DNA from: Deltaproteobacteria bacterium
Lineage (GTDB): Bacteria > Desulfobacterota > Desulfobacteria > Desulfobacterales > C00003060
Assembly (NCBI GenBank): GCA_016930875.1
Contig: JAFGFW010000077.1
Location: forward strand, 1 to 38,873
Length of the DNA: 38,873 nt
Direction: 5' to 3'
Below, piece after piece: positions 3-31,156 of this stretch. Under the pieces are notes generated by a model that saw nothing but the letters and a program-made list of their open reading frames with translations, made no database searches and was not told the DNA's origin. Both the position numbers and the translations under genes were made by a program. Numbering within the stretch: the stretch's first letter is position 1; each line of letters begins with the position of its first letter.

Positions 3-1292
3 ATCCGCATGAAACTCGTTAATGTTATCGGCCTGTTGGCGATGTTGTTAGTGTGGCAAATGATCTGTTGCAATTTTGGGCTTTATAATTCTCGAAGATT
101 GCAGAATAGTTTTCAGGAATGGAAAGACATCATCAAGGCCACGAGTCTTGTGACGGTCCTTTTCCTCCTGGGAGCGCACACCTTCAATATCGTGCTTTTC
201 ACACCGCTTTTCACATCTGTTTTCTGGCTGTCTCTGACCGTTTTGACCATTTTTTTCCGAACCGTGTTAAGGTACGGCCTGAAGAAGATACGCGTCCACG
301 GCAAGAACTTGCGATTTATCCTGATCGTCGGGACGAACGAGAGGGCATATGACTTTGCTGATATGGTAAAGGAAAACAAGGAGTCCGGGTATCGGGTGGT
401 GGGATATGTTGATGATCTAATCTATCTGCAAAAGCCAGGGATAAGGCTTTTGGGAACCATGGAGGATTTTCGCGACATCATCGGACAACTTGTCATTGAC
501 GAGGTGATCATTGCCCTGCCTGTCAAGTCCAAATACGAGAAGATTCAAACAATTATAGAGACAGCGGAAGAACAGGGCATCACAATACGTTGTCTTTGCC
601 ATCTGTTTAATACCAAAAGATCTGTCTTGACCGCCACAACGCTTGGGGGTTTTCCTGTGTTGGAAATTACCTCTAAACCGCGAGAAGACATCAGGTTTAT
701 TTTGAAAAGGTCCCTGGACATTGTGTTGGGATCGGTATTGCTTTTATTGACGCTGCCTGTGATGGCGGTTACCGCCATTGCGATAAAACTGACCTCCCGA
801 GGCCCTGTCTTGTTTATTCAGCCCCGGGTAGGCTACAACAAGCGGATATTTGCATTATACAAGTTCCGGACAATGGTTGTGAATGCAGAAAAGATGCAGG
901 ATAGACTGGAGGATTCCAACCACATGGATGGTCCGGTGTTCAAGATTAAAGATGACCCGAGGGTTACCAATTTTGGCCGATGGCTGCGTAAGGCCAGCAT
1001 TGACGAACTGCCACAGCTCTACAACATTGTCCGGGGCGACATGAGCCTGGTCGGCCCCAGACCACTTCCGGTGCGTGATTACAATGGTTTTAAGAAGGAC
1101 TGGCAACGGAGGCGGTTTAGCGTGCGACCAGGGCTGACTTGTCTTTGGCAGGTTAATGGCAGAAACGGAACTTCTTTCGAAGATTGGATGAAGCTCGATA
1201 TGAAGTATATTGATAACTGGAGCTTTTTCGGCGATATGAAGATCCTCGTTCAAACCATTCCAGTTGTCATAAACGGAAAAGGGGCGTATTAG
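3..1292 (+). CDS. Polyprenyl-phosphate sugar-1-phosphate transferase (WbaP/ExoY-like), 5' end missing
   Basis: Transfers a sugar-1-phosphate from a nucleotide sugar to undecaprenyl phosphate, the first membrane step of exopolysaccharide repeat-unit assembly. Counting from the ATG at position 9, two hydrophobic segments (about residues 3-20 and 45-85) precede a Rossmann-like CoA_binding_3 region (about 100-215). A further membrane helix (about 238-258) leads into the bacterial sugar transferase domain. Diagnostic motifs are visible: KFRTM, IDELPQ, GPRP and RPGLTC-W near the C-terminus. The frame is open to the left edge (codons for Ile-Arg precede the ATG). Full-length relatives have four or five N-terminal helices and about 460-480 residues, so the gene probably begins outside the window. 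It heads the EPS locus and is separated from the next gene by about 390 bp. The family call is firm; the sugar is unknown. Confidence 0.93.
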   Translation: MRMKLVNVIGLLAMLLVWQMICCNFGLYNSRRLQNSFQEWKDIIKATSLVTVLFLLGAHTFNIVLFTPLFTSVFWLSLTVLTIFFRTVLRYGLKKIRVHGKNLRFILIVGTNERAYDFADMVKENKESGYRVVGYVDDLIYLQKPGIRLLGTMEDFRDIIGQLVIDEVIIALPVKSKYEKIQTIIETAEEQGITIRCLCHLFNTKRSVLTATTLGGFPVLEITSKPREDIRFILKRSLDIVLGSVLLLLTLPVMAVTAIAIKLTSRGPVLFIQPRVGYNKRIFALYKFRTMVVNAEKMQDRLEDSNHMDGPVFKIKDDPRVTNFGRWLRKASIDELPQLYNIVRGDMSLVGPRPLPVRDYNGFKKDWQRRRFSVRPGLTCLWQVNGRNGTSFEDWMKLDMKYIDNWSFFGDMKILVQTIPVVINGKGAY

Positions 1293-1560
1293 ATCCACCG
1301 GAGAGGCGCGGTGAGCGCAGCGATTTGATTCTTTTCTCTTGTTGAATCTACCCTTCGCCCAATGAAGAAACCGGAGACGATGAGAAAAACGCTCTATCCT
1401 TCCGAGTTCGCATACCTTGATACACCTTGACATTCATTCAGTCCCTCTGCAATTTCCACCTATCGGGATGAGGTATGTGGTCCTCATCCCTAAAGGAAAA
1501 GGCTATTCCTCAGTATGCTTTGCGATTTTTCGGTGAAGCATTCCTCCTAGTTTATTCGAA

Positions 1561-1576
1561 ATTTGATCGATCAAAT
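1561..1576. promoter_or_regulatory. 16-bp perfect palindrome, candidate operator
   Basis: The sequence ATTTGATCGATCAAAT is its own reverse complement over 16 bp. It lies about 40 bp upstream of the -24 element of the sigma-54-like promoter at 1615-1630. A dimeric transcription factor could bind here; no regulator is identified. Confidence 0.35.
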
Positions 1577-1614
1577 GGAAGGTGACGGGATGTTCGTAGT
1601 CGAATTGATGGTAT

Positions 1615-1630
1615 TGGCTTGGCTTTTGCA
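1615..1630 (+). promoter_or_regulatory. Sigma-54-type promoter (-24/-12) for the synthase gene
   Basis: TGGCTTGGCTTTTGCA has the sigma-54 architecture: GG at 1616-1617, exactly 10 nt, then GC at 1628-1629, with TGGC and TTGCA matching the consensus cores. Transcription would start near 1640, about 44 bp before the ATG at 1684. Two other sites with the same spacing precede EPS genes in this window (12094 and 29883). Confidence 0.5.
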
Positions 1631-1683
1631 GAAAAGTTGCTACAATTAAATTAGGTTTTTTATCCTTGAAAGGTATCTATATT

Positions 1684-4600
1684 ATGCACAGGTTCCAGAT
1701 TATTGCGCTTTCTCCTCCAGGCCTTTTCGATCCGGCTATTGCAATAGCTGCCAGTCGTGCAGGCGAGATCGGCATATTGGATCTCGAGTATGTCCGAAAA
1801 GAGGAAGCCGCCAGGGCTGCTTTGGGCAAACTGGCCCTGTATGCAAGGAATAGTTGCGGTGTTAGGCTTGATGCGGGAGATGATGAGTTCTTTTCAAGAT
1901 TGATTGGCCACCTTCCGGAACAAACAGAGTATGTGATCTTGACTGGCATTGATTTCAAGAACTTGTCAGGCCAGGTTGAAGCCCTCCGTGGTCGAAATAT
2001 TACCGTCTTATGGGAAAGTAAAAGCCTTGATCAGGCGCTTCAAGGTGTAGATGCCGGGGTGGACGGTTTGATCGCCAAGGGCAACGAGGCCGCTGGCTGG
2101 GTCGGGCAGGAAACCGCCTTTATTTTGCTTCAGCGGCTATTGCGCAACACATCGCTGCGAGTTTGGGCCCAGGGCGGGATCGGTTCGCATTCAGCAGCAG
2201 GCTGCTACGCGGCAGGAGCTGCAGGCGTGGTCGTGGATTCACAGCTTCTATTGACGCGGGAGTCTGCTATACCACACCGGGCCAAGGCGACCGTTGCCGG
2301 CATGGACGGCAGTGAAACGGTGTGTTTGGGAGAGGAGTTGGGAACATTATGCCGTGTATACGCGCCTCCAGGATTTTCCACACTGACAGGCATTCGAAAA
2401 ATACTATCAGACTTTATTCAAAATGACCTATCAAATTCAGAAAAAATAAAGATATGGAAAAAGAAGATCGGATCACACCTTGGATGGGAGTATGGGAAGG
2501 AATGTCTTTGGTTTCTCGGGCAAGATATCGGTCTTGCCAAATGGTTTGCCCAGCGCTTTTTGACGGTTGGAGGGGTTTTAGAAGGGATCCGACAGTCCAT
2601 TGATACCAATGTGGCTATTGCGTCCAATACTCAGCCCTTTAATGAAGCGTCTCCTCTTGCTCAGTCGCATGGTACACGTTATCCGATCGTCCAGGGCCCT
2701 ATGGCACGGGTCAGTGATCGGGCCTCCTTCGTCGCCAAAGTTGCCGATGCAGGTGCGCTTCCTTTTTTGGCTTTAAGTTCCATGGGGCCCAGAGATATTG
2801 AGGGGCTTTTGGGTGATGCCCAAAAACTGCTCGGGAACCGTCCATGGGGGGTTGGCATCCTCGGTTTTCTTTCTTCACAGCTTCGCCAGGAACAGTTCCA
2901 CGTGATTCGGCGTTTTCGCCCGCCTTTTGCCATTATCGCCGGAGCGCGTCCTGCTCATGTGAAACCTCTGGAACAGGAAGGCATTCGCACTTATGTGCAT
3001 GTTCCCTCTCCCGGCCTGCTTAAGATGTTTATTGAAGCCGGGACACGCAGATTCATCTTTGAAGGACGCGAGTGCGGTGGCCATGTTGGGCCGCGATCCA
3101 GCTTTGTGCTCTGGAATGCCATGACCGATGTCCTCCTTGAGTGCGTTCCTGCGGGCGAACTTGCAGATTGCCATGTATTGTTTGCCGGCGGTATCCATGA
3201 TGAACTTTCTTCCTGTATGGTGGCGGCTATAGCAGCTCCTTTGGCTGAGAAAGGTGTTAGGGTGGGCATCCTTATGGGTACAGCCTACCTATTTACCGAA
3301 GAAGCGGTATCTACCGGGGCACTGCTGGAGGGCTTTCAGAAAGAGGCTTTAAGGTGCAAAGAGACTGCGTTGCTGGAAACCGGACCTGGCCATGCTATCC
3401 GTTGTGCTATGAGTCCTTATGTAGAGAAGTTCAATCAGGAAAAGCGCCTGCTATTGCAGAAGGAAAGACAGCCGGACGAGGTTCGCAAGACCCTGGAAGA
3501 GATGAACCTTGGCCGTTTGCGTATTGCCTCCAAGGGCGTGAAACGAAACCCTGAGTGCCAACGATCTCGAAATGCCTCTGTGTTCATTACATTGGGGGAA
3601 GAGAAACAGCGCAGTGAAGGGCTTTATATGATTGGCCAGTTGGCAGCTTTGCGGGATGAGACGTGTACCATGGAGGGGTTGCATCAAAAAGTCTCTTTAG
3701 GGGGCTCCCGACGTCTAGCTGAACTTGAAGATTCAGGCCTTTCTTGTTTTTCAACGCAAACTCGGGAAAGCCCATGTGAAATTGCAATAATCGGTATGGC
3801 TTGTCTTGTGCCCAAGGCCCCGGGACTTCAGTCCTATTGGGAAAACATTATCAATAAAGTCAGCGCCATTACTGAGGTGCCGGAAGATCGCTGGGACTGG
3901 CGGTTATATTTCGACCCAGATTCGGACGCTCAAGACAAGTTTTATTCAAAATGGGGCGGATTTCTTGATCCCGTCCCATTTGACCCCATTCAATATGGGA
4001 TGCCGCCTAATTCGTTGAGATCTATTGAACCGTTGCAACTACTTACGCTTGAAACGGTTGCAGCAGCTTTACGAGATGCCGGCTATGAAAACAGACCCTT
4101 TGCCAGAGAACGCACCTCAGTCATTATCGGGGCAAGTGGAGGCTTGGCAGATCTTGGCCAATATTACGCCTTTCGGGCTGCCCTGCCGACGTTTTTCGAG
4201 GATGTCCCTGAAGAAGTCCTATCACAACTTCCGAAGTGGACGGAGGATTCATTCCCCGGCACCCTTGCTAACGTGATTGCAGGTCGGGTGGCCAATCGCT
4301 TTGATTTTGGTGGGGTAAACTACAGTATGGATGCAGCCTGCGCTTCCTCTATGGCTGCAATCCACTCGGCTATGAGGGAACTGGAAAACAGGGCTAGCGA
4401 TATGGTGCTTGTGGGAGGTGCTGATACGTTTCAGAACCCCCATTTTTTCTTCTGTTTCGCCAAGACCCATGCGCTGTCGCCAACAGGAAGGTGTCGGACC
4501 TTTGATAAGGATGCCGACGGAACCTGCATCAGCGAGAGTGTTGCAGTCGTGGCTCTCAAGCGGCTGGTTGATGCCGAGCGAGATGGAGACCGGATCTATG

Positions 4601-7600
4601 GCGTGATTAAAGGGGTGGGAGGGTCAAGTGATGGCCGTCACAAGGGACTCACAGCCCCGCACCCCGAAGGTCAGGCCAGGGCATTAAACCGGGCCTATGC
4701 CAAGGCGGATATCTCTCCTGCCACTGTAGGTCTCATTGAGGCCCATGGCACAGGCACAGTGGCAGGTGATCGTTCTGAAATTGAAACGCTGAAACAGGTA
4801 TTTCAGTCGGCTGGCGCCTGCGCCAGAAGCTGTGCCCTCGGATCAGTCAAATCTATGATCGGCCACACAAAATCTGCCGCAGGAGTAGCCGGGCTTATCA
4901 AGGTTGCGTTGGCTCTTCACCACAAGGTCTTGCCGCCTACGATAGGGGTGGACAGCCCCAATCCGAGCTTGACGGAAAGTCCCTTCTACGTAAACACCGA
5001 AGTGCGCCCGTGGATTCACGGATCCAAGGACTATCCACGACGTGCTTGTACTAGCGCTTTCGGTTTTGGAGGTACAAACTTTCATGCTGTCATTGAAGAA
5101 TATACAGGGAATTTTTTGGATTTCACCAACCAAGCAGTATCCCGACAGTGGCAAAGTGAAATCATTTTGTTGACAGCACCATCCCGCGAAGGACTTATCA
5201 AAGAGGTTAATGCACTTGATGAGAGCCTGGAACAGGGGGGCGAGCCCGAGTTGGCAGACCTGGCCTGCACGCTGTGGCAGAAGCGCGGTAATGCGAAGAA
5301 ATTGAAACTGGCAATTGTAGCCCAGTCCTTGGATGATCTGCGGCAGAAACTCAAAACAGCGCAAAAGTCCTTAAAGGAATCTGGAGATATCTGGAATGCC
5401 AGTGGCATCTATTTTACTGAACGGCCCTTGGCCAAAGACTGTAATATTTGTTTCTTGTTTCCGGGGCAGGGATCTCAGCATCCAGACATGCTTCGAGAGC
5501 TTGCCATCTATTTTTCGGAGGTACGAAAGGCCTTTGAGCTGGCAGACCGTGTTTTGGAAAAACAGTATCCGAAGTTTTTGAGCAGCTATGTATTTCCGCC
5601 CCCTTGCTTCAGCAAAGAAGAAGAGCTCAGATGCCAAAAAGAACTTACCCAGACCAATATAGCCCAAGCAGCGCTTTCCGCTGCGGCTATGGGGGTTTTT
5701 CGACTGTTGGAGGCATTGAATGTAAGCCCGAATATGGTCGCCGGTCACAGTTCCGGCGAATACGTCGCATTGTGTGCCTCAGGTGTCTATGAAGAGGAAG
5801 ACCTCTACAGGCTTACCGAGGCGAGGGGCCGGTTCATAGTGGAAATGGCGGGAGATGATACCGGCACAATGGTTGCTGTAAAGGCGGGGCGCAGGGAAAT
5901 AGAAGATGTTATCAAGTCTATCGAACAAGTCTGGGTCGCTAACGTGAATGCCCCTACACAGACGATTATTTCGGGCAGAAAGGCAGATATGGCAGAAGCT
6001 GTAAGGCGTCTTGAAAATGAAGGTATGCAGGTACGTCCAATCCCGGTATCGTGTGCCTTTCACTCGCCACTCGTTGTCCCTGCACGGGATCGTCTTGCCG
6101 AGTTTATCTCGACTATTCATTTTGCCAAGCCGAAAATGGGGATTTTTTCCAATACGACCGCCGACTTATACCCACAGGATCCAGAAGAGATGAAGGTCCT
6201 GTTAAGCAAACATTTGATCAGTCCCGTGGAATTCACCAGAGAGGTTGAGCAAATGTACGACACGGGCGCCCGGATTTTCATAGAGGTGGGCCCACGTAAT
6301 GTGCTGACAGGCCTGACAGGAAAGATCCTCGGTGAACGAACGCACCTGGCCGTGGCAGTGGACAAACGTGACCGTACAGGCTTGCTTCAGCTTCATCATG
6401 TGTTGGCACAACTGGCAACACATGGTGTTCCCCTTGAGCTTGATCGTTTCTACAGAGGGAGGGGCTTGCGTCTTCTAAACCTTGGTGCACTTGTGAAGGA
6501 AACGAAAAGCCAGCCGCTTTCTTCAACGACGTGGATGATTACTGGTGGCCGGGCTGTGCCTCTTAAAGAGGCACACGGTAGTGAGCGGGAAGAGAAAAGT
6601 CCGAGACGGGTGCGGGTGAAAGCCCCCAATTTGAGAACGAAACAGGAGGCAGGCAGTTTGACCATGGCCAAAAAAACAGGATCAAATCATCTTTCACAGG
6701 CCGGAACACAACGTCCTTGTGCGCTTCGTGGTTCTCGTTCTTCCAGTAATGAAGTTGACCGAGTCATGCTCGAGTTCCAACAGGTGATGGGTCGGTTCAT
6801 GGAGCGGTTTCTGGAGACGCAGCAGGAAGTCATGAAGGCCTACCTTGGCAGGACGAGGAAGAGTGCCGGGTTGGCCAGTGGCGATTTTTCTGCGGCAAGT
6901 TTAGAGAAGATGACTGAATCGACCTTAAAGGAACTGGACCAAGTACGAGGTGAGCTGGAAAGTGGCAGGGAGGTTGACGATGTCGGGGAAGCCGAGAGCC
7001 AAAGAATGGAAGAAAGGCCTGCAGCAACCTCCGAGGAACGTTCCGGCCGTATAAGTCCTGCGGGTATTGACAGGGAAGAACTGACGAAAAATCTTGTTCA
7101 GATTGTAAGCGAGCGTACGGGGTATCCGCAGGATATGATTGACCTGGATCTTGACCTGGATGCGGAGCTTGGCATTGACTCGATCAAGTGGGTGGAGATC
7201 CTTGGTAAGCTTCAACAGTCTTATCTGAATCTCAGTGAGCAGCAAGCACAGGCAGCAATGGAAGAGCTGTCTGAAATTGCTACATTAAGGGGAGTGATTG
7301 ACTGGTTTACAGGGACTTCAGGTCCCGGAAGACAAACCATGGACGAGATGTCCAATGATGTTATGGGGCAACAGGAAACCTCAAACAGGGGGTCCGCTGG
7401 GGCAGATAGCAGTGTTGCTGCACAAACCCTGCCACGTTTTGTCCTTTCTGCACTTGATATACCGCTCGAAGATTCCCACCTTCAAGTCGAGGGAGGATCT
7501 GTTTTTATCGTCACTGACGATGAGCGCGGCATTGCCCGGAGCGTGGCAGATGAACTTAAAGCCCTTGGGGCTCGTGTGGCCCTTGTTGGCATGGGCAAGA

Positions 7601-9942
7601 AGGTAAAGAAAAGGCGTAGGAACATTTATACGGCAGACTTGAGTGCGCCGGAGCAGGTCGATGAACTGGCAAGACTTGTTCGGCGAAAAGAGGGAGAGAT
7701 TACCGGTGTCATTCACCTTTTGCCATTGAGAGTGGGAAAGCGCCTTGAGGAGATGGACCTTAAACAATGGCAAATGCGTCTTAGGGAAGAGGTAAAAAGC
7801 TTGTTCTACCTTGCCAAAGCTTGCGGCGAGGACCTCAGAAGAACCGCCAAAACAAAAAAAGCGCACTTGTTGACTGCCACTGGCATGGGGGGTACCTTTG
7901 GTGCTGGTATGGAGATGCCCAGGACTACGTTTGCAGGGCATGGGGGTTTGGCTGGGATTGTTAAGACTCTCGCCCTGGAGTGGCCTGACGTGCGGTGCCA
8001 AGTTGTGGACCTGGATCCGACAGATTCCATTTCAAGACTGGCAGGATACGTGCTTCGTGAAATGGGAAGTGAGGATGCAAATGTTGAAGTGGGTTACACG
8101 GAGGCACGTCGTCTGGCGCCTGTTCTAAAGCAAGCCCCCTTGGATATTGGAATGGCCGCTGTATTGACGATGGATTCAAGTTGGGTGGTTCTGGCAATTG
8201 GCGGGGCCCGTGGCATTACAGCGGAGGCGACCTTAGGGCTAGCCAAACGTTACAAGCCGACGATCTTGGTGGCAGGACGTTCCCCGCTTCCAGAGGAAGA
8301 GCCCCCTGAGACAGCAGCACTTACATCCACAGAGGAATTAAAGGCCGCATTGATTGAAAGGATGCGTCACTCAAAGGGTAAACCTACGCCAAGGCAGGTA
8401 GATGATGCCCTTAAACAAGTTCAGTGTAACAGAGAAATACACAGTAATCTTGCGGCCATGCAGGAAGCTGGGGCAAGGGTGAAATACTACCAGGTCGATG
8501 TGCGGGATGAAGAGGCTTTTGGTAATGTCATTGAAGAGATCTGCCAGGAGTATGGGCGACTGGATGGTTTGATTCATGGAGCGGGTGTCATCGAAGACAA
8601 GCTCATTGAAGACAAGACGGCTGATTCGTTTGATCGGGTTTTTGATACAAAGGTTGATAGCGCCTTTGTTCTTAGCAAAAAGCTCCCAATTGACTCCGTT
8701 AAATTTCTTGTTTTATTTTCGTCTATAGCAGGGCGTTTCGGCAATTGGGGACAAAGTGACTACGCTGCAGCTAATGAAGTGCTTAACAAGCTGGCCGTTT
8801 ACCTTGACAGCAGATGGCCGGGACGGGTTGTGGCTATTAATTGGAATCCCTGGGCCAAGGCAGGGATGGCTACTGCCGAGGCTTTAAGGCAGTTTGCCGA
8901 GCAGGGCATACAGGCCATTGAACCGAGTGCTGGCCGCCGCATGTTGGATGAGGAACTCGGCTATGGTCGGAAAGGGCAGGCGGAAGTCGTCATTGGTGAT
9001 GGCCCGTGGAACAGGGCTGCATCAACGGAGTTGACCTCCACTCATATTGCTTTTCCTCTTCTGCACGGGACACCGTTGAAGGTGGGTTACGATCATGGCG
9101 TGGAGGTTGTGCTGGCATTGGATCCCGAACGTGATCGTTATTTGCAGGACCATCGAATTGATGGGAAGGCAGTATTTCCGTTTGCCGTTGCCATGGAGTT
9201 GATGTCAGAAGTAGTCCAGCAGGGTTGGCCTGAACTGGTCGTGACGGGCATTCAGTCTGCGCGTCGTTTCCAGGGGATTGTATTGGACGGCGAAGGACAA
9301 AAAATCCGCGTGGTAGCAAAACCTCAGTGCGGTATTTCTGCGGAACAGGGGATCTCGAGACTGGATGTGACGATAGCGGGACTAAATCAAGATAAGTTGC
9401 CCTATTACAGTGCCACGGTGGAGGTGGGAAATCAACTTCCCCTTTCTCCAGAGTATAATGCCGAAATGCTTTCGAGACTTCAACCTTTTCCCATGAGCGC
9501 CGATGAGGCTTATAAGAAATGGCTTTTCCATGGCCCTTGTTTTCAAGGTATATCGAAGGTGGATGGTTTTAATGACAAGGGCATAAGTGCAGTGTTGCTG
9601 CCTTCAGTGCCGTCAGTGTGTCTGAACCGGAAAGTTGACAGCCCGTGGCTGATTGATCCTGTGGTGATTGATAGTGCCTTTCAGCTCTCAATCTTGTGGG
9701 AACGCGCTCATTATGACATGACATTTCTGATCTCGCGCGTCGGGTCTTATCGACGCTTTGGTTCGTTTTCCAATCAGCCTGTTCGATGCTGGGCCGAAAT
9801 GCACGCCGGTGCCGGGGGACACCTTCTTTCCACCAATTTCCGTTTTGTAGATGAAAGGGGCAAGGTGATTGCCCTTATTGAGGAAATGGAAGGTTCTTGC
9901 AGCAAGGAGTTGAACCGGATTGTTGATCATGTCGGCATATAA
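1684..9942 (+). CDS. Pfa-like type I polyketide/fatty-acid synthase (NPD-NPD-KS-AT-ACP-KR-DH)
   Basis: A 2,752-residue iterative-type synthase that should build a reduced or unsaturated acyl chain. Domains in order: a degenerate FMN TIM-barrel (about 1-200); a second nitropropane-dioxygenase/PfaD-like enoyl-reductase barrel (about 333-590, motif ECGGH); KS (about 697-1140) with Cys886 in DAACASS, His1021 in EAHGTGT and His1061 in GHTKSAAG; AT (about 1255-1550) with GHSSGE (Ser1356) and AFHSP (His1460); a helical linker; one ACP (about 1795-1865, GIDSIK, Ser1833); KR (about 2170-2450, GGARGITA and a YAAAN active site); and a double-hotdog DH (about 2460-2750) with HRIDGKAVFP and DSAFQ. I chose ATG 1684, preceded by AAAGG at good spacing, over the in-frame TTG at 1666. 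There is no thioesterase. The next gene encodes the matching phosphopantetheinyl transferase. It resembles the secondary-lipid/PUFA synthase group; the product is unknown. Confidence 0.93.
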   Translation: MHRFQIIALSPPGLFDPAIAIAASRAGEIGILDLEYVRKEEAARAALGKLALYARNSCGVRLDAGDDEFFSRLIGHLPEQTEYVILTGIDFKNLSGQVEALRGRNITVLWESKSLDQALQGVDAGVDGLIAKGNEAAGWVGQETAFILLQRLLRNTSLRVWAQGGIGSHSAAGCYAAGAAGVVVDSQLLLTRESAIPHRAKATVAGMDGSETVCLGEELGTLCRVYAPPGFSTLTGIRKILSDFIQNDLSNSEKIKIWKKKIGSHLGWEYGKECLWFLGQDIGLAKWFAQRFLTVGGVLEGIRQSIDTNVAIASNTQPFNEASPLAQSHGTRYPIVQGPMARVSDRASFVAKVADAGALPFLALSSMGPRDIEGLLGDAQKLLGNRPWGVGILGFLSSQLRQEQFHVIRRFRPPFAIIAGARPAHVKPLEQEGIRTYVHVPSPGLLKMFIEAGTRRFIFEGRECGGHVGPRSSFVLWNAMTDVLLECVPAGELADCHVLFAGGIHDELSSCMVAAIAAPLAEKGVRVGILMGTAYLFTEEAVSTGALLEGFQKEALRCKETALLETGPGHAIRCAMSPYVEKFNQEKRLLLQKERQPDEVRKTLEEMNLGRLRIASKGVKRNPECQRSRNASVFITLGEEKQRSEGLYMIGQLAALRDETCTMEGLHQKVSLGGSRRLAELEDSGLSCFSTQTRESPCEIAIIGMACLVPKAPGLQSYWENIINKVSAITEVPEDRWDWRLYFDPDSDAQDKFYSKWGGFLDPVPFDPIQYGMPPNSLRSIEPLQLLTLETVAAALRDAGYENRPFARERTSVIIGASGGLADLGQYYAFRAALPTFFEDVPEEVLSQLPKWTEDSFPGTLANVIAGRVANRFDFGGVNYSMDAACASSMAAIHSAMRELENRASDMVLVGGADTFQNPHFFFCFAKTHALSPTGRCRTFDKDADGTCISESVAVVALKRLVDAERDGDRIYGVIKGVGGSSDGRHKGLTAPHPEGQARALNRAYAKADISPATVGLIEAHGTGTVAGDRSEIETLKQVFQSAGACARSCALGSVKSMIGHTKSAAGVAGLIKVALALHHKVLPPTIGVDSPNPSLTESPFYVNTEVRPWIHGSKDYPRRACTSAFGFGGTNFHAVIEEYTGNFLDFTNQAVSRQWQSEIILLTAPSREGLIKEVNALDESLEQGGEPELADLACTLWQKRGNAKKLKLAIVAQSLDDLRQKLKTAQKSLKESGDIWNASGIYFTERPLAKDCNICFLFPGQGSQHPDMLRELAIYFSEVRKAFELADRVLEKQYPKFLSSYVFPPPCFSKEEELRCQKELTQTNIAQAALSAAAMGVFRLLEALNVSPNMVAGHSSGEYVALCASGVYEEEDLYRLTEARGRFIVEMAGDDTGTMVAVKAGRREIEDVIKSIEQVWVANVNAPTQTIISGRKADMAEAVRRLENEGMQVRPIPVSCAFHSPLVVPARDRLAEFISTIHFAKPKMGIFSNTTADLYPQDPEEMKVLLSKHLISPVEFTREVEQMYDTGARIFIEVGPRNVLTGLTGKILGERTHLAVAVDKRDRTGLLQLHHVLAQLATHGVPLELDRFYRGRGLRLLNLGALVKETKSQPLSSTTWMITGGRAVPLKEAHGSEREEKSPRRVRVKAPNLRTKQEAGSLTMAKKTGSNHLSQAGTQRPCALRGSRSSSNEVDRVMLEFQQVMGRFMERFLETQQEVMKAYLGRTRKSAGLASGDFSAASLEKMTESTLKELDQVRGELESGREVDDVGEAESQRMEERPAATSEERSGRISPAGIDREELTKNLVQIVSERTGYPQDMIDLDLDLDAELGIDSIKWVEILGKLQQSYLNLSEQQAQAAMEELSEIATLRGVIDWFTGTSGPGRQTMDEMSNDVMGQQETSNRGSAGADSSVAAQTLPRFVLSALDIPLEDSHLQVEGGSVFIVTDDERGIARSVADELKALGARVALVGMGKKVKKRRRNIYTADLSAPEQVDELARLVRRKEGEITGVIHLLPLRVGKRLEEMDLKQWQMRLREEVKSLFYLAKACGEDLRRTAKTKKAHLLTATGMGGTFGAGMEMPRTTFAGHGGLAGIVKTLALEWPDVRCQVVDLDPTDSISRLAGYVLREMGSEDANVEVGYTEARRLAPVLKQAPLDIGMAAVLTMDSSWVVLAIGGARGITAEATLGLAKRYKPTILVAGRSPLPEEEPPETAALTSTEELKAALIERMRHSKGKPTPRQVDDALKQVQCNREIHSNLAAMQEAGARVKYYQVDVRDEEAFGNVIEEICQEYGRLDGLIHGAGVIEDKLIEDKTADSFDRVFDTKVDSAFVLSKKLPIDSVKFLVLFSSIAGRFGNWGQSDYAAANEVLNKLAVYLDSRWPGRVVAINWNPWAKAGMATAEALRQFAEQGIQAIEPSAGRRMLDEELGYGRKGQAEVVIGDGPWNRAASTELTSTHIAFPLLHGTPLKVGYDHGVEVVLALDPERDRYLQDHRIDGKAVFPFAVAMELMSEVVQQGWPELVVTGIQSARRFQGIVLDGEGQKIRVVAKPQCGISAEQGISRLDVTIAGLNQDKLPYYSATVEVGNQLPLSPEYNAEMLSRLQPFPMSADEAYKKWLFHGPCFQGISKVDGFNDKGISAVLLPSVPSVCLNRKVDSPWLIDPVVIDSAFQLSILWERAHYDMTFLISRVGSYRRFGSFSNQPVRCWAEMHAGAGGHLLSTNFRFVDERGKVIALIEEMEGSCSKELNRIVDHVGI

Positions 9943-10852
9943 GCGGGTCGAGACTCATCGCAGGAGCCCCAGTGCGATTTTCCGGACCTACGGGGCAGGC
10001 GCAGAGGACGCAGAGAGGATATATTTTTCTTTTTCAGCGGTGCAGAAAAAGAAAAAAGCTCACCGGTTTTCGCATTTTCGTGGTGAACGTTTTATTTGCG
10101 CTGAACCCTGGTCGGCACCAGTTACTCGTATGCCCGGTTCATTGAGGTTGCAGTGTTGTCGTGCCTTTGATATTGGCAATGGAGGGTCGCTTCAGAATCT
10201 GGCCAATGTCATCCTGAGTTCCAGAGAGATGAGAACCTGGTCGCAGTTGCGGGTTCCAGAAAGGCGCTGCCGAGAATGGCTCCTTGGTCGCCTTTGTGCC
10301 AAGGATGCGGTGCGAGTTCTTGTCAACGAAAAAAAGGGGTGGGGATTGGTCCCGTCGGAGATAGAAATCGTCACAAATGACTACGGACGTCCCTTGGTTG
10401 GTGCGAAGCTAGCCAGCGAGCTGGATTATCCTTTGTCCATTTCTATTGCCCATTCGGAGGGTGTGGCGGTGGGAATTGCTGGTGAATGTCGTGATTTTAG
10501 GGATGTAGGTATCGATATAGAGCCTGCCACTCGGGACTGCCGGGGACTAGAGAGGATAATTCTACGTACGAGTGAACGATCCCTTCTATCGACGATGAGT
10601 CGATTTAGAAGGCAGGAGTGGTTACTGTGTTTTTGGTGTGCCAAGGAAGCCGTGGCCAAAGCCCTCGGACAGGGAATGGTTGGAGGACCATGGGGTTTTC
10701 TGGTGAAAGGTGTGGAACTTAAAACGGGCAGGATAGTCTTGAAGCTTGCCGGCAAAGCTTTGCAGCAGTTGCCTCGTTACAGAAACAGGGTTTTCACCGT
10801 TTATTCGGGCTGTGAAACTGACTTTGTTTATGCCACATCGGTTGTAGACTGA
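9929..10852 (+). CDS. Sfp-type 4'-phosphopantetheinyl transferase
   Basis: Attaches the phosphopantetheine arm of CoA to carrier-protein serine, here most likely Ser1833 of the upstream synthase. The diagnostic motifs VGIDIEP and WCAKEAVAKALG are present, and RREWLLGR-AKDAVR-type residues (CREWLLGRLCAKDAVR) match PKS-associated family members. The ATG at 9929 overlaps the synthase stop by 14 bp, but residues about 20-55 are translated from repeat-like DNA (9996-10088, including a 12-bp hairpin) and look unlike a protein domain. An in-frame ATG at 10130 would give a 240-residue protein of usual family length, though some family-like sequence (AEPW) lies before it. The start is therefore unsure. 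The frame differs from the synthase frame, so this is not simple readthrough. The function call is firm. Confidence 0.88.
   Translation: MSAYKRVETHRRSPSAIFRTYGAGAEDAERIYFSFSAVQKKKKAHRFSHFRGERFICAEPWSAPVTRMPGSLRLQCCRAFDIGNGGSLQNLANVILSSREMRTWSQLRVPERRCREWLLGRLCAKDAVRVLVNEKKGWGLVPSEIEIVTNDYGRPLVGAKLASELDYPLSISIAHSEGVAVGIAGECRDFRDVGIDIEPATRDCRGLERIILRTSERSLLSTMSRFRRQEWLLCFWCAKEAVAKALGQGMVGGPWGFLVKGVELKTGRIVLKLAGKALQQLPRYRNRVFTVYSGCETDFVYATSVVD
9996..10088. repeat. Intergenic-type repeat relic inside the PPTase 5' region
   Basis: The segment begins with CGCAGAGGACGCAGAGAGG-type sequence (9996-10019). It contains a perfect 12-bp inverted repeat (10024-10035 with 10045-10056, 9-nt loop) and ends with TTTTCGCATTTTCGTGGTGA-like sequence (10067-10088). 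Similar fragments recur at 10924-10960, 21401-21431 and 27557-27575, all outside genes. This suggests repeat DNA inserted at the synthase/PPTase junction. Confidence 0.6.
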
Positions 10853-10923
10853 CATCGGTTTGCACATCTGTTTCGGGGCAGGCTGATAAATGGGAGGGGG
10901 CTGCCCACTAAATGGAAATGGCG

Positions 10924-10960
10924 GTTCGTGGGCGTGTTTTGGTGTTTTCGTGGTCAAATC
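10924..10960. repeat. TTTTCGTGGT-type repeat relic before the GNAT gene
   Basis: The run contains GTTCGTGGGCGTG and GGTGTTTTCGTGGTCAAAT. It resembles the TTTTCGTGGTGAA fragment at 10067-10088. It lies directly upstream of the RBS of the GNAT gene and is probably non-coding. Confidence 0.45.
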
Positions 10961-10972
10961 ATTCATTTCCTC

Positions 10973-10980
10973 AAAGGAGG
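10973..10980 (+). promoter_or_regulatory. Strong RBS that sets a TTG start for the GNAT gene
   Basis: AAAGGAGG lies 5 nt before TTG at 10986, in the GNAT frame. The upstream in-frame ATG at 10890 would force translation of the repeat relic at 10924-10960 and has no comparable ribosome binding site. Confidence 0.6.
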
Positions 10981-10985
10981 GATGT

Positions 10986-12044
10986 TTGGGAGAGGCTTTA
11001 CGTTATCGACGGCTTCGTAGAAGCGACAAAAAGGGACTCTGCGAACTTTTTTACGAGGTCTTTGGCGATGGAAAGGGTACTGATTACTGGGACTGGAAGT
11101 ACTACCAAAATCCAGCAGGTTCGCATGCATCAGTAATAGCCTTGCATGGGTCTGAAGTAGTGGGCATTTTAGGTGGTATCCCCCTGAGAATGAAAGTGGG
11201 CGGTGATACATTGCTCGCCTGTCAGGGCGTTGATACCGTAATTTCTGGAAGACATCGGAAAAGTTCTACATTTTTCAAACTAGAAGCCAGGGTTACTGAA
11301 CAAATGGAAAAGGCCCAACTGGCTTTTAGATATGCCTTTACTATAAAAGAAACTTACCGACTGTTTACAACAGCGCGCGGTTTTTCCGGTGTTTGTCCGA
11401 TAATCAAGATGGCCAAGGTGATCAATCCGAGGCCATATCTTCGGCAGAAGACAGAGTTAGGCTTATTGACGGATACGTTGGGCGGTGTGGCAAAATGCGC
11501 TATTAGGAAGTGGAATAAGAAGAAGCTGTCTGTGCCTGAAGGCGTTGACATTGTCGAAATAAGCCGCTTTGATCACAGATTTGACGATCTTTGGCACCGA
11601 GAACGGGGAAACTATGAAATAGCAGTGGCCAGGAATAGTGAGTATCTCAACTGGCGATATGCTTACGCACCCAGGCGGTATAAGGTTTTTGGTGTTGAAT
11701 GTAGGCAGGTTGTTAAAGGGTTTATCGTATTAGGGTGCTACAAAGAGGAGGTTACGAGGGGCCGAATCCTGGATATTTTAGTGGAAAGGGGACAGAAAGA
11801 ACTGGTGGATTTGCTCGTTTCTGAGGCGCTAAACTATTTCATTGATCAAGACGTGGATGTCATCACGTGCTGGATGCTGGAAGGTTGGCCTGCTTTTCAT
11901 GCCTTGAAGGAAAAAGGTTTTGTTCCAAGGCAAACGTCCCATGACCTTATTGTTCGGTCATATTTTCCGGACAAGATCAGCAATGAATACTTGGCTGACA
12001 GCTCTAGATGGTATGTAACAATGGGGGACAGTGATTATTATTGA
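10986..12044 (+). CDS. GNAT-family acyltransferase in the EPS locus
   Basis: A predicted cytoplasmic acyl-transfer enzyme of 352 residues. The N-terminal GNAT fold begins at about residue 5 with LRYRRLRRSD and contains the WDWKYYQNPAG stretch typical of a GNAT subgroup with an extended acceptor site. It continues with VIALHGSEVVGILGGIPLRM and a probable acyl-CoA-binding segment VDTVISGRHRKSS. The second half (EYLNWRYAYAPRRYKVFG, then LDILVERGQKELVDLLVSEAL) repeats a GNAT-like pattern, so the protein may hold two GNAT folds. It follows the synthase and PPTase, so it could pass their acyl product to a sugar or amine acceptor; that link is inference. The TTG start is favoured by the AAAGGAGG site; ATG 10890 is the alternative. 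Confidence 0.75.
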   Translation: MGEALRYRRLRRSDKKGLCELFYEVFGDGKGTDYWDWKYYQNPAGSHASVIALHGSEVVGILGGIPLRMKVGGDTLLACQGVDTVISGRHRKSSTFFKLEARVTEQMEKAQLAFRYAFTIKETYRLFTTARGFSGVCPIIKMAKVINPRPYLRQKTELGLLTDTLGGVAKCAIRKWNKKKLSVPEGVDIVEISRFDHRFDDLWHRERGNYEIAVARNSEYLNWRYAYAPRRYKVFGVECRQVVKGFIVLGCYKEEVTRGRILDILVERGQKELVDLLVSEALNYFIDQDVDVITCWMLEGWPAFHALKEKGFVPRQTSHDLIVRSYFPDKISNEYLADSSRWYVTMGDSDYY

Positions 12045-12093
12045 GGATGTTTTTGGGACCCATACGTTGGATTATCATCTATTTCAGAAAATC

Positions 12094-12109
12094 CGGCTCA
12101 AAATTTGCA
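12094..12109 (+). promoter_or_regulatory. Sigma-54-type promoter before the first kinase/Wzz pair
   Basis: CGGCTCAAAATTTGCA has GG at 12095-12096 and GC at 12107-12108 with exactly 10 nt between, and a consensus TTGCA. It lies in the 155-bp gap after the GNAT gene, about 110 bp before the P-loop protein gene. Only the leading T of TGGC is missing. Confidence 0.45.
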
Positions 12110-12219
12110 CGGAATCTACGTGCGTGTTGTCAAAGAGTTCCGAGGGTGAGTCACTGTAAGTTATCGCCTGTGGTAATAATATTTGCGTCCTTAAAGAAAT
12201 GGGAGGGATTACGGGAAAA

Positions 12220-12900
12220 ATGACAATATCGAAGGTGCCGCCTTTTTTGCAATTGCCACCGGTCGTGCGGGCGCAATTTGAAAAGCTTGCGTCGAGTATT
12301 GTCATTCCCCAAAAAAAACAGAAGTTAAGGTCGATCGTTTTTATGAGTTACAATCATGGGGAGGGTACATCCACTATAGTAAAGTATTTTGCCGAGTCCT
12401 TGGCCCTCGGGCAAAAGCACAACGTGCTGGTAGTTGACGCAAATACCCGAACCCCTAGCCTGGGACAAAGATCAAATGGCAACGAGGTTAAACACAAATT
12501 TTCCTTTTCAGACCTCTTTACGGGGCAGATTGAAGACTGGGCATTGCCCAAGCCTTCGCCTGATTCCAACTTTTCTACCGTTCCAAGTGGAGATATTACA
12601 TATCACCCATCACAGGTATTCGATCATGAACAATTTGACAGGTTCATAGATAGCGCAAAGAAACTGTTCCATTTTGTGATTTTCGATTCAAGCCCCATCG
12701 GTTTATACTATGACTCAATTGTCTTGAGTTCGCACGTAGACGGCGTCATATTGGTCGTTCAGGCAGAAAGAACGCAGCCGAACGAACTAAAACGGGCGAA
12801 ACAGATGTTGCACGATAGTGATATCCCTGTACTGGGGGTCGTCTTGAACAGGCGGAGGTTTCGTATTCCAGCTTTTGTTTATCAAAGGTTTTTTGGATAG
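12220..12900 (+). CDS. CpsD/Wzc-type P-loop protein with degenerate Walker A (probable inactive BY-kinase partner)
   Basis: Related to the cytoplasmic domain of bacterial tyrosine kinases that control polysaccharide chain length. The 226-residue protein (233 from ATG 12199) keeps the overall fold: SIVFMSYNHGEGTSTI at the Walker A position, VLVVDANTRTPSL (Walker A') and FVIFDSSPIG (Walker B). The catalytic P-loop lysine is replaced: GEGTST instead of GEGKST. The C-terminus (AFVYQRFFG) lacks the tyrosine cluster used for autophosphorylation. It sits 14 bp before a Wzz-like gene with which it would pair, as in split Wzz/CpsD systems. A GGGAGGG sequence 12 nt upstream favours ATG 12220, though 12199 is possible. 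It could be a regulatory ATPase-fold protein rather than an active kinase. Confidence 0.8.
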   Translation: MTISKVPPFLQLPPVVRAQFEKLASSIVIPQKKQKLRSIVFMSYNHGEGTSTIVKYFAESLALGQKHNVLVVDANTRTPSLGQRSNGNEVKHKFSFSDLFTGQIEDWALPKPSPDSNFSTVPSGDITYHPSQVFDHEQFDRFIDSAKKLFHFVIFDSSPIGLYYDSIVLSSHVDGVILVVQAERTQPNELKRAKQMLHDSDIPVLGVVLNRRRFRIPAFVYQRFFG

Positions 12901-12914
12901 AAAGGCGTGGGATT

Positions 12915-14471
12915 GTGGAGGAGATGTTGAAAAAAGGAGAACTCCTGTATAACACTTTGTACGTCGTGTTCAGGAGAAGGGTTACGCTTACATTGTTGTG
13001 CGTTCTTTCCTTTGGATTCGTTGTTCTTTTTGCATCGTTGACAACACCGACTTTCAAGGCGACCACAAAGATCCTGATTCGGTCAAATCCGCAACAACAG
13101 TTGATCCTGTTCAAGAATCTGGCGACTCCAGGCAAGGAGAGTCCGGGTATTAATCCGGGGCATAATTTGATTCAGATACTAACGGGCAGGCAGATGGCTA
13201 CAGAAGTTGTGGAGAAATTTGAACTCGACAAAAGGGCTCTGAGAAAAGCGAACGAATCCAAAGAGTCTAGGAGTAAAATCGTAGAATCTATTTTTGATAC
13301 CCTCAACGTCATTGCTACAACTCTTAAAGGCTTGATTGGACTCGAATCTGACCCAGAGGACTATGTCTTACAGGAGGTTAAGCATCTTATTGAGAAGGCA
13401 GAAGACGTGCAATTGGAGGAAGAGAGTGACGTCATCAACCTGACTATATGGGAGGAGACGCCAACGCTATCTTCCGATATCGCCAATTTTATGGCTCATC
13501 GGCTCGTGGAAAGGGCTAGAGAACTGGAACAGGAGAACGCAAATCAGGCATATCTGTTTACCAGAGACAGAATCGAAAAAGCGGAGATAGACTTGCAAAA
13601 AGCCGAGAAATCACTGTTTGCCTTTAGAAAGAGGCACGGGGTGATCAATTTTAGTGATCAGAAAATGGAGAGGCTAAGAAATCTGACTGGCGTAGAAGAC
13701 AGGTTCCGGATTCTCGAAGTTCAGATTGGAGAAAATGAGGCAAAGCTGGAAGAAATGAACAAGAGGATAGAGGGCCAAAGAAAGCTCCTCCAAAATGCCC
13801 CCGTCTTTTCCAACAACCCGGTTGTTAAAGGGTTGATAAGCGCTTTAAACATCCAAGAAATCAAACTTGCAGGCGCCCTGGAGCGATTTACGGAATCGAG
13901 TGAGGATGTGAAGACCCTTAAAGCTCAGGCCGCAGAAAGCAAAGACAGAATCGAGAAAGAACTAAGAGCGCTGCTGAATAGTGAGACGGCTATCCTTCAG
14001 TCTATTCATCCCGATTTGGCTGAGGAATATACCAGACTTCTGGTCGAAACTGGAGGGCTTCGTTCCAAACGGGCGATACTGGAATCGCAGATTAGCGGAT
14101 TGAGGGAAGAGGCCTTTGAAATGGCTGAACTGGAAATGGAGTTAAAGAACCTGAACACGCGCAGAGCGGCAAAGAACACGATATATGATAACCTTTTGGG
14201 GAAGCTTTCCCAGCTCGAAGTCCAGAAGGCCTTTGAGATCATGGGCCATGATCTCAAAATCATTGATAAAGCCGATATCTCCAAAGATGCCCGTCCTGAA
14301 CGGCCGGATTGGTCATTGCTGCTTCCTTTAGGTTTTGTAGGCAGTTTCTTGCTCAGTTTTGGACTGGTCTTTTTCATCGAGTATTGGGATGAATCCTTCA
14401 AGTCCCCCCAGGATGTTGAACAGAAGCTGGATCTGGACGTTCTATGCACAGTTCCCGATATGTCCACATGA
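12915..14471 (+). CDS. Wzz/GumC-like chain-length determinant protein
   Basis: Inner-membrane polysaccharide co-polymerase controlling chain length and coupling polymerisation to export. The N-terminal transmembrane helix (about residues 23-45) is followed by the Wzz-type segment (TPTFKATTKILIRSNPQQQL). A long periplasmic alpha-helical/coiled-coil region (about 190-430) and a second membrane helix (about 470-492, LLLPLGFVGSFLLSFGLVFFIEY) follow. The protein then stops shortly after, with no kinase domain, unlike the fused Wzc-like protein at 31157. Its partner is the degenerate P-loop protein just upstream. The start may be GTG 12915 or ATG 12924. Family identification is firm. Confidence 0.88.
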   Translation: MEEMLKKGELLYNTLYVVFRRRVTLTLLCVLSFGFVVLFASLTTPTFKATTKILIRSNPQQQLILFKNLATPGKESPGINPGHNLIQILTGRQMATEVVEKFELDKRALRKANESKESRSKIVESIFDTLNVIATTLKGLIGLESDPEDYVLQEVKHLIEKAEDVQLEEESDVINLTIWEETPTLSSDIANFMAHRLVERARELEQENANQAYLFTRDRIEKAEIDLQKAEKSLFAFRKRHGVINFSDQKMERLRNLTGVEDRFRILEVQIGENEAKLEEMNKRIEGQRKLLQNAPVFSNNPVVKGLISALNIQEIKLAGALERFTESSEDVKTLKAQAAESKDRIEKELRALLNSETAILQSIHPDLAEEYTRLLVETGGLRSKRAILESQISGLREEAFEMAELEMELKNLNTRRAAKNTIYDNLLGKLSQLEVQKAFEIMGHDLKIIDKADISKDARPERPDWSLLLPLGFVGSFLLSFGLVFFIEYWDESFKSPQDVEQKLDLDVLCTVPDMST

Positions 14472-14693: not shown

Positions 14694-16253
14694 ATGAAGC
14701 GCTTATCAGTACAGGGGATTGCCGAGGCGACTGTCATAATCGCCATTGCTCGAGCCTTGGCAGGCTTTTTGAAGCTACTTGTCATTGTTTTTATCGCGCG
14801 GGAGTTCGGGGCTGGTCTCATAGTCGATGCTTACATGGTTGCAAAATCGGTACCTATGTTGTTTTTCGTCATAGGTGAGGCGACATTTGTGACCAGTTTT
14901 TTGCCTGTATTCGTCAATTACAGGGTCAAGGAAGGTGAAAATCAGGCCTGGCTCCTGTCCGATTCCGTCTTTAGTTTCCTGCTCCTTTTCCTGACTGCCG
15001 TTGTCGCTTGTGTTGTGTTCTTTGCCCCCGGCCTGACCTTTGCGCTTGCTCCCGGGTTGCCCGAAGAAACCCTGTCCCTTGGGGCTTCCCTGGTAAGAAT
15101 GATGTCTCCCGTCATAGTGCTTGCCGGTGCTTCCAGCATGGCAGCATCCATTTTCAATTCCTATCGTAACTTTACGATTCCGGCGGTTGCTTCGGTTTTG
15201 TTTCCCTTGGGAATCATAATTGCTGTCTGGCTGTTTGCCGACGTGATAGGCATTTACGCTATTCCCCTGGGGGCAGTTGCTGGAGCCGTTGCCCAAGCCG
15301 GCATCACGATAGCAGTTCTGGGAAAGACAAAAAGATGGCTTAGGCCGACGCTGCATTTTCAGTGTTCGGGATTTTTTGAGACGGTGAGGTCAACTGTACC
15401 CAGGCTTTTGACGCTTGTGGTCAACCGGGCAAACATCATGGTCGACAGGGTTTTTGCTTCAGCCCTGGGAGGTGGATATATCGCTGCGCTAAGTTATGCG
15501 GATAGAGTGGTGCAGATTTCTGTGGTTCTTTTTACCAGTTCATTTGCAAACGCAGCCATGCCGGTCTTGAGCAAGTCTGGTGCGTCTGGTGATTTCGATC
15601 GAGTAAGGAGACTATTTCATAAAATGACCGGATTTCTCTTTTTTGTTACCATGCCAGCGTCGATTATTCTCATTCTTTTTGGAAAAACGATCACCACCCT
15701 TTTGCTCCAAAGAGGTGCCTTCGACGTTGATGCGGTAATTTTGACCTCTTCCGCCATGATGTTTTACGGATTCGGACTGTTGCCCTTTGCAATGACCATG
15801 TTGCTGGGTGTGTTTTTCTACGCCTTGAGTGATTCAATGACTCCGATGAAGGCGGCTTTTGTGTGTTTTTTCCTTAATGTAGGACTTGATGCCCTCCTGG
15901 TTCGGTTTCTCGAACTCGGTGGCCTCGCCCTTACCACTTCGTTGGTGGCGATCTTCAGTACAGTCTTTCTATTCTGGTTCCTCAACAAGAAAATCGGCCC
16001 CTTGGATTTGAGGCGAATCATGGCCTCTTTTGGGAAGACCTTGACGTCGGCTTGTCTCATGGGGGTGATTATGTGGGGAGTCATGGTCTATTTTGAACGT
16101 TCAAACGCTCAGCCGGGATTATGGCTCCAGTTAGGGGGTAGCCTATGCCTTGGTTTTGTTGGATATGCTGGCATTTGCTGTTTGTTTAAGGTGGATGAAT
16201 GCCGCGTGATCGTGGATGCCGTGTGTAGAAGATTTCAGCCTCGCCATAGGTAA
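14694..16253 (+). CDS. MurJ/MviN-type lipid-linked oligosaccharide flippase (likely the Wzx of this locus)
   Basis: A 519-residue integral membrane protein of the MOP exporter superfamily with about 13-14 predicted helices. The N-terminus (VQGIAEATVIIAIARALAG) and the DAYMVAKSVPMLFFVIGEAT segment match MurJ/MviN. MurJ flips lipid II, but the position inside an EPS locus directly before a polymerase-like gene suggests it moves the EPS repeat unit across the inner membrane. No other Wzx candidate exists in the window. The 222-bp gap before it holds no recognisable gene. The start ATG follows a GGAAGGGTAAG stretch, a plausible ribosome binding site. Assignment to the superfamily is firm; the substrate is inferred. 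Confidence 0.88.
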   Translation: MKRLSVQGIAEATVIIAIARALAGFLKLLVIVFIAREFGAGLIVDAYMVAKSVPMLFFVIGEATFVTSFLPVFVNYRVKEGENQAWLLSDSVFSFLLLFLTAVVACVVFFAPGLTFALAPGLPEETLSLGASLVRMMSPVIVLAGASSMAASIFNSYRNFTIPAVASVLFPLGIIIAVWLFADVIGIYAIPLGAVAGAVAQAGITIAVLGKTKRWLRPTLHFQCSGFFETVRSTVPRLLTLVVNRANIMVDRVFASALGGGYIAALSYADRVVQISVVLFTSSFANAAMPVLSKSGASGDFDRVRRLFHKMTGFLFFVTMPASIILILFGKTITTLLLQRGAFDVDAVILTSSAMMFYGFGLLPFAMTMLLGVFFYALSDSMTPMKAAFVCFFLNVGLDALLVRFLELGGLALTTSLVAIFSTVFLFWFLNKKIGPLDLRRIMASFGKTLTSACLMGVIMWGVMVYFERSNAQPGLWLQLGGSLCLGFVGYAGICCLFKVDECRVIVDAVCRRFQPRHR

Positions 16254-20480: not shown

Positions 20481-20483
20481 GAC

Positions 20484-21335
20484 ATGAAGGAAATGGGACG
20501 GAGTATTGGTAAAGGCAAGAGATTCCTGTCGGCCGCATTGGTTCTTTGGGGACATCTGTATCCAAGGAGAGTAATCCCTGTCCTATTGTATCATTCTGTT
20601 GATGATTCAGGTTCCGTAATTTCCATTTCTCCAGAACAATTCAAAGCGCAGATGAGATACCTGAAATATGAAGGTTTTAGTACTATATCCTTGAAAGAGT
20701 ACTTGAATTATTTGCTTGGCGACGAGCAACCTTCTGGGAAAAAGGTAGTTATTACCTTTGATGATGGATTTAAAAATAACTACACCGAAGCCTTCGCCGT
20801 GCTAAAGAAGTATCGATTTGCCGCCACAATCTTTATTTCCACAGAGCATATCGGGGGGACATGCTCCTGGGAGAGAGACAAGTCTATTCCGGAACTTCCC
20901 ATGTTGACATGGGACGAAATAGAGGAGATGAGTGACTACGGTATTAATTTTGAGTCCCATGCCTGTGGCCACCGTTATCTGTCTAAACTCTCAGAAAATG
21001 AGGCAAGAGATGAACTAATGATGAGCAAATCGACCATAGAGAAAAGGACCGGGCGGCAAGTGGACTTCTTTTGTCATCCCTACGGGGATTGGAGCGAGCA
21101 AACAAAGCTGTTGGCAAAGGAATGCGGTTATAAGGGGGCTTTTACACGGCCGGGTTTCAGTTCTATGAGTTCTAAGGAAGATCTGTATGATTTGAAAAGA
21201 ATTGGGACGGCGCAGTTTTCATGTTTGGAGGATTTTAAAGCCGGACTCTTGGGAACATATGATTGGTATGTGAAGTTTAAGGAATATTTGGGGATTAGGA
21301 GATTTAGGGATTTACAGATTTGGGATTGCGACTAG
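20484..21335 (+). CDS. Polysaccharide deacetylase (NodB/CE4 domain)
   Basis: Removes N- or O-acetyl groups from a glycan. The 283-residue protein carries the CE4 motifs: YHSVDD, TFDDGF (catalytic base and metal-binding Asp, about residues 93-98), SHACGH (metal-binding His pair, about 156-161) and FCHPYGDW. The N-terminal 30 residues include a short hydrophobic patch (FLSAALVLWGHLYP) that may be a membrane anchor, but no clear cleavage site is seen. It is the last gene of a packed run starting at 17805 and is followed by element copy A. EPS deacetylation, as with PgaB/IcaB-type enzymes, is the natural role. Confidence 0.9.
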   Translation: MKEMGRSIGKGKRFLSAALVLWGHLYPRRVIPVLLYHSVDDSGSVISISPEQFKAQMRYLKYEGFSTISLKEYLNYLLGDEQPSGKKVVITFDDGFKNNYTEAFAVLKKYRFAATIFISTEHIGGTCSWERDKSIPELPMLTWDEIEEMSDYGINFESHACGHRYLSKLSENEARDELMMSKSTIEKRTGRQVDFFCHPYGDWSEQTKLLAKECGYKGAFTRPGFSSMSSKEDLYDLKRIGTAQFSCLEDFKAGLLGTYDWYVKFKEYLGIRRFRDLQIWDCD

Positions 21336-31133: not shown

Positions 31134-31156
31134 AAGGGATTGAGGGAAAAAGGCGG

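Follow-up and report, generated by a model that had tools for sequence, protein, structure and literature searches.

A predicted ArsA-clade fatty-acid synthase beside a putative GNAT acyltransferase in an exopolysaccharide locus

The window, meaning the whole 38,873-nt stretch of DNA analysed here, carries a polysaccharide (EPS) locus that spans positions ~1 to 33,274 and opens, on the forward strand, with a gene for a polyprenyl-phosphate sugar-1-phosphate transferase (9..1292; PF02397, 226 bits; TIGR03025 above cut-off). On the same strand there follow an iterative type I synthase (1684..9942), a PPTase (9929..10852, alternative start 9920; PF01648) whose open reading frame overlaps the synthase stop, and a double-GNAT (Acetyltransf_9) protein (10950..12044), for which a start at 10890 is possible and homology begins at ~10950. 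The initial annotation had given the order sugar transferase, iterative synthase, PPTase, GNAT, and the open reading frames at these coordinates bear it out. It had continued with Wzz, Wzx and Wzy; that order also stands, except that a gene for a Wzc-like tyrosine autokinase domain protein (12199..12900; TIGR01007, 96 bits, just below cut-off) intervenes before the Wzz/XrtA-type chain-length determinant (12915..14471; TIGR03007, PF02706), and that the protein in the Wzx role (14694..16253; PF03023, 282 bits) is a MurJ-family flippase. Farther along are a Wzy-like O-antigen ligase/polymerase (16304..17791; PF04932), a polysaccharide deacetylase of the NodB/PgaB superfamily (20484..21335; PF01522, 101 bits; the NodB and PgaB models both match below cut-off) and, at the end of the locus, a Wza exporter with a second Wzc (30060..33274; PF02563, SLBB; TIGR01007 above cut-off), all likewise on the forward strand. 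Profile searches of the window find the Wzx/Wzy EPS gene set complete (sugar transferase, Wzx-like, Wzy-like, Wzz, Wza and Wzc), and two PF01663 proteins are encoded in the locus. A B12-binding radical SAM protein (HpnJ/BchE-like; 28163-29635) is encoded within it, and a multi-haem cytochrome gene (C7/CXXCH; 34113-35963, minus strand) lies just past it; such a cytochrome gene likewise adjoins the corresponding locus of the congener G019. Scans for promoters and terminators found sites no more common than in shuffled sequences.

The synthase is a protein of 2758 aa, read from the ATG at 1684, with Pfam domains in the order ER-ER-KS-AT-ACP-KR-DH (two NMO-type ER domains, KS, AT, a single ACP, KR and a PKS-type DH). 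Active-site motifs are kept in the KS, AT (GHSSG, AFHS), ACP (GIDSI), KR and DH domains; the second ER region keeps the GGH motif, and the first has AGW in its place. No thioesterase family model matched the protein, in agreement with its earlier description as a synthase without thioesterase. In the KS tree it falls within a clade of 13 sequences (support 100/96) that includes the synthase of the Beijerinckia indica plasmid pBIND02; the clade is one of ER-ER-KS-AT-ACP-KR synthases, and its sister group consists of PfaA/Hgl-like synthases. On this comparison, which used the Beijerinckia protein and left out Azotobacter ArsA itself, we assign the synthase to the ArsA-clade (“Type P”) type I fatty-acid synthases. 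A PUFA synthase (PfaA) was ruled out: the protein scores above the TIGR02813 cut-off and shares the KS-AT-ACP-KR order, but it has one ACP in place of a tandem array, lacks PfaB/C/D partners and has its KS in a clade sister to theirs. No relative of the synthase was found in viral contigs.

Type P synthases make the alkyl chains of phenolic lipids and were recorded by Shulse and Allen in two organisms, Beijerinckia and Azotobacter vinelandii (PMC3098273). In A. vinelandii, the long chain comes from the fatty-acid synthase ArsA, the type III PKSs are ArsB and ArsC, and ArsD is a PPTase (PMC4824345); the Beijerinckia locus comprises the synthase, two type III PKSs and a DH-PPT protein. The window locus resembles these ars loci in its ArsA-clade synthase, with tandem NMO-type ER domains, KS-AT-ACP-KR and no thioesterase, and in the PPTase gene downstream of it (ArsD). 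It differs in that the DH is fused to the synthase and the PPTase lacks a DH part, in that the synthase sits among EPS genes next to a GNAT gene, and in the absence of type III PKSs: profile searches found no ArsB/C gene in the window, and PF02797 had zero matches in the organism's own genome (an assembly 97% complete). Another acceptor enzyme is therefore needed.

Full-length relatives of the synthase in the genomes G414 and G672 (48-50% identity) adjoin a second subunit of the form KS-AT-(ACP)-DH-PPT, as does the relative in G633; G716 has both proteins too, split over separate contigs. In all four genomes the second subunit is followed by a PF01663 phosphodiesterase, beyond which G414 (annotated) has an alpha/beta hydrolase, an SDR and a UDPGT-like transferase. 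The N-terminal ~75 residues of the window PPTase align with the DH-PPT linker of these four B subunits, and the PPTase thus looks, from its sequence, like a remnant of the usual second subunit (KS-AT-ACP-DH-PPT). The reduced PPTase and the loss of the B subunit are common to the window species and its congener G017.

The GNAT protein matches PF13527 above the gathering score (38.8 bits, cut-off 25), which places it in the GNAT superfamily; this was the sole family found at E up to 1, and the NodA family model did not match. Its double-GNAT family, marked in the alignment by a conserved WRY motif and a C-terminal GDxD, is present in 42 of the 389 genomes of the order (Desulfobacterales). The profile gave a weak match to N-myristoyltransferases, and its best PDB matches, AAC(2') among them, transfer small acyl groups; AlphaFold, run from a two-row alignment, returned no usable model (pLDDT 30.7). 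After the G017 protein, the closest relative in the family tree is a sister protein from another genome (G168:C122; 50% identity, support 100/99), whose EPS locus has homologous Wza, kinase (53%), Wzz (47%) and MurJ (40%) proteins and in which no synthase was found. The GNAT was thus arguably part of the EPS locus before the synthase arrived. Of 43 loci, 5 have a deacetylase directly next to the GNAT, a suggestive, uncontrolled count.

Synthase and EPS genes adjoin in two congeneric species only, that of the window and G017. A tract of 11.5 kb (1480..13050, forward strand) is 93% identical to G017 at the nucleotide level, and identity at 4-fold sites reaches 0.88-0.94 for the synthase, PPTase, GNAT and kinase genes, as against 0.45-0.67 for most EPS genes and 0.34-0.46 for core genes (rpoB, fabD region). 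To judge by these identities, the synthase-PPTase-GNAT-kinase tract has been exchanged recently between the two species, so the linkage in G017 does not count as a separate sign of selection for it; on the same 4-fold-site comparison, long-term conservation of the synteny between the two was rejected. The initial annotation had proposed a survey for conserved synteny of synthase and EPS genes. What emerged was one recent event in two species, with other ArsA-like synthases lying elsewhere: in surveys of up to 395 genomes each, plus named plasmids and contigs, none of those with readable flanks lay in an EPS locus, while the ArsA-like synthases of L044 and L045 have half-known flanks, their contigs ending downstream. 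Literature phrase searches brought up no relevant paper on a synthase placed among EPS genes. Recombination has left the EPS locus a mosaic. The GC of the synthase and PPTase genes (0.51-0.52) is above that of most EPS genes, and in G017 the sugar transferase and the synthase are separated by formate dehydrogenase and molybdenum genes. G017 also has a second B12-binding radical SAM gene, between phosphodiesterase and deacetylase. The first phosphodiesterase gene of the window (18700-20486) forms a second recently exchanged patch with that genome (~93-95% at the nucleotide level), and the Wzz gene (12915-14471), directly after the 93% identical kinase gene, has 57% identity to its G017 counterpart.

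The corresponding slot of G019, flanked by a sugar transferase on one side and a kinase and Wzz on the other (68%, 58% and 52% identical to those of the window, respectively), is filled by the genes GNAT-OYE-FMN reductase-FAD oxidoreductase-FabG-ACP-FabZ-KS-KS, all on one strand and with the GNAT 3 nt from the next gene. This GNAT is 28% identical to that of the window and is not its ortholog; a type II acyl synthase with a GNAT took the same EPS slot in G019 independently. This type II operon, which is inverted and begins with the GNAT gene, occupies positions 2180-11430 of L061 (G019:C437), and its KS-beta gene has only weak matches (32-36% identity) in three other genomes among the 389 of the order. 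Elsewhere, genes for KAS III, ACP and a GNAT of the double-GNAT family stand in direct succession (L100 8369-10724; G168:C156), G136 and G208 have the order deacetylase-GNAT-ACP-AMP-ligase with a GNAT of the same family, and Azospirillum plasmids (L168, L169) have, in an EPS-type locus, the tight order deacetylase-ACP-AMP-ligase-asnB-nadE-GNAT, again with a GNAT of this family. Two Desulfobacterales polysaccharide loci (L097 8223-13302; L098 8560-13663) read deacetylase-GNAT-ACP-lactate racemase-like-AMP-ligase. The asnB-ACP-AMP-ligase-nadE cassette also occurs without a GNAT of this family (rhizobia), and most GNAT loci have no ACP nearby. A free-standing ACP was found in 6 of 41 GNAT loci, as against 0 of 40 windows of 20 kb drawn at random from the order (Fisher p 0.026). 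In this comparison the control is random windows and not other polysaccharide loci, the six positive loci include two sisters, and some of the tested loci, though not L107, one of the six, went into the ACP model. Some fabF/fabD neighbours showed an apparent in-frame TGA.

The layout suggests, short of proof, a polymer with home-made fatty tails. An ArsA-type (Type P) iterative fatty-acid synthase may have been recruited into a Wzx/Wzy-type EPS locus, where the adjacent PPTase would charge its single ACP. The synthase would build a long chain, probably saturated and C20 or longer by analogy with ArsA, whose product is a C22-C26 saturated acyl. Because there is neither a thioesterase nor a type III PKS, the neighbouring double-GNAT protein, a putative acyl-ACP-dependent N-acyltransferase, is proposed to take the chain from the synthase ACP. 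It would join the chain in amide linkage to an amino sugar, either in the EPS repeat unit or in its polyprenyl-linked precursor, ahead of flipping and polymerisation; the NodB-like deacetylase (20484..21335) is a possible source of the free amine. We put this transfer of a long acyl-ACP, made on site, to the EPS or its lipid-linked precursor at somewhat short of an even chance. Parts of it had been anticipated in the earlier reading of this DNA. An acyl chain made on site is consistent with a lipid-type, thioesterase-less synthase of the ArsA clade with a PPTase of its own, the chain itself being what we infer. Direct transfer from the ACP likewise agrees with that clade, in which starter chains reportedly pass directly from type I FAS to type III PKS (so the title of Miyanaga et al. 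2008); here the GNAT would be the recipient. Transfer by the GNAT to the glycan or its carrier gains from the G019 slot and the ACP neighbours and loses from the sister locus without synthase, the acceptor being a prediction. Counting against acyl transfer are that sister GNAT, the small number of ACP neighbours, the low identity of the G019 GNAT and the AAC(2')-like matches; the deacetylase may act outside the cytoplasm, which would also count against it.

A serious rival, though an unlikely one in our estimate, is that GNAT and synthase work apart, the former as an ordinary EPS acetyl- or short-acyl-transferase with a sugar nucleotide or a repeat unit as its substrate, the latter making an unconnected lipid (free fatty acid, membrane lipid or wax). 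The synthase-free sister locus, the AAC(2') match and the occurrence of the family mostly without ACP or KS all favour such a division, whereas the G019 operon that unites a type II synthase with a GNAT in the same slot, the recurrent ACP neighbours and the lack of any gene found beside the synthase for another release route speak for a joint function. It is quite unlikely, we judge, that the synthase provides the alkyl chain for a glycolipid, as seems to hold for its relatives, and that enzymes of the locus glycosylate it, the polymer itself staying unacylated. Synthase relatives in Beijerinckia and Streptomyces do lie near glycosyltransferases, those of the four genomes with a second subunit precede a phosphodiesterase (in G414 also the hydrolase, SDR and UDPGT-like transferase), and the window locus has its two PF01663 proteins; yet searches of that locus yielded neither a GT1/GT28 enzyme nor an alpha/beta hydrolase, and PF01663 proteins are found in EPS loci without an ArsA-like synthase too.

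The synthase might also be a passenger, a mobile biosynthetic gene that was captured where recombination is frequent, next to the EPS genes, and that is functionally unconnected with them. The recently exchanged tract, the higher GC of synthase and PPTase and the restriction of the adjacency to two species are what such a history would leave, but PPTase, GNAT and kinase moved in the same tract with frames intact, catalytic motifs are kept in every synthase domain except the first ER, and the loss of the B subunit is common to both species; we consider a mere passenger very unlikely.

Acylation of the EPS from the synthase would have partial precedents. Emulsan-type exopolysaccharides bear fatty acyl groups, as is proposed for the window polymer; we know of no dedicated type I synthase inside their EPS loci that makes these groups, and the type I synthase in the locus sets the window apart. 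In the jawsamycin system, amide release is performed by a GNAT. The jawsamycin PKS is, like the window synthase, iterative and thioesterase-less and needs a separate release enzyme (PMC13389473), whereas its architecture is unrelated, its acceptor is a nucleoside and polysaccharide genes are absent. The rhizobial Nod factor pathway (NodA/NodB/NodEF) follows the same logic, with a dedicated ACP-bound chain, a deacetylase and an N-acyltransferase in one glycan locus, and NodA takes fatty acids from ACP (PMC5080398). The window differs from it in a GNAT without a NodA match, in a large type I synthase and in a product that would be a Wzx/Wzy polymer.

ArsA-type synthases are known for phenolic lipids; one set among EPS genes is so far known only from the window species and one congener. 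A broader reading, which we find doubtful, is that double-GNATs dependent on carrier proteins form a general class in bacterial polysaccharide loci and would attach, in amide linkage, custom acyl groups supplied by makers on site that can be exchanged for one another (an ArsA-like type I FAS, a type II KS-CLF set, KAS III with ACP, or AMP-ligase with ACP). If acyl transfer by the GNAT is true, the ArsA-type synthase would gain a second use, in exopolysaccharide with lipid tails, and a GNAT family that is common in polysaccharide loci but unassigned would acquire a function, the transfer of acyl groups from carrier protein to glycan; there would then be many lipo-polysaccharides beyond those that current annotation predicts.
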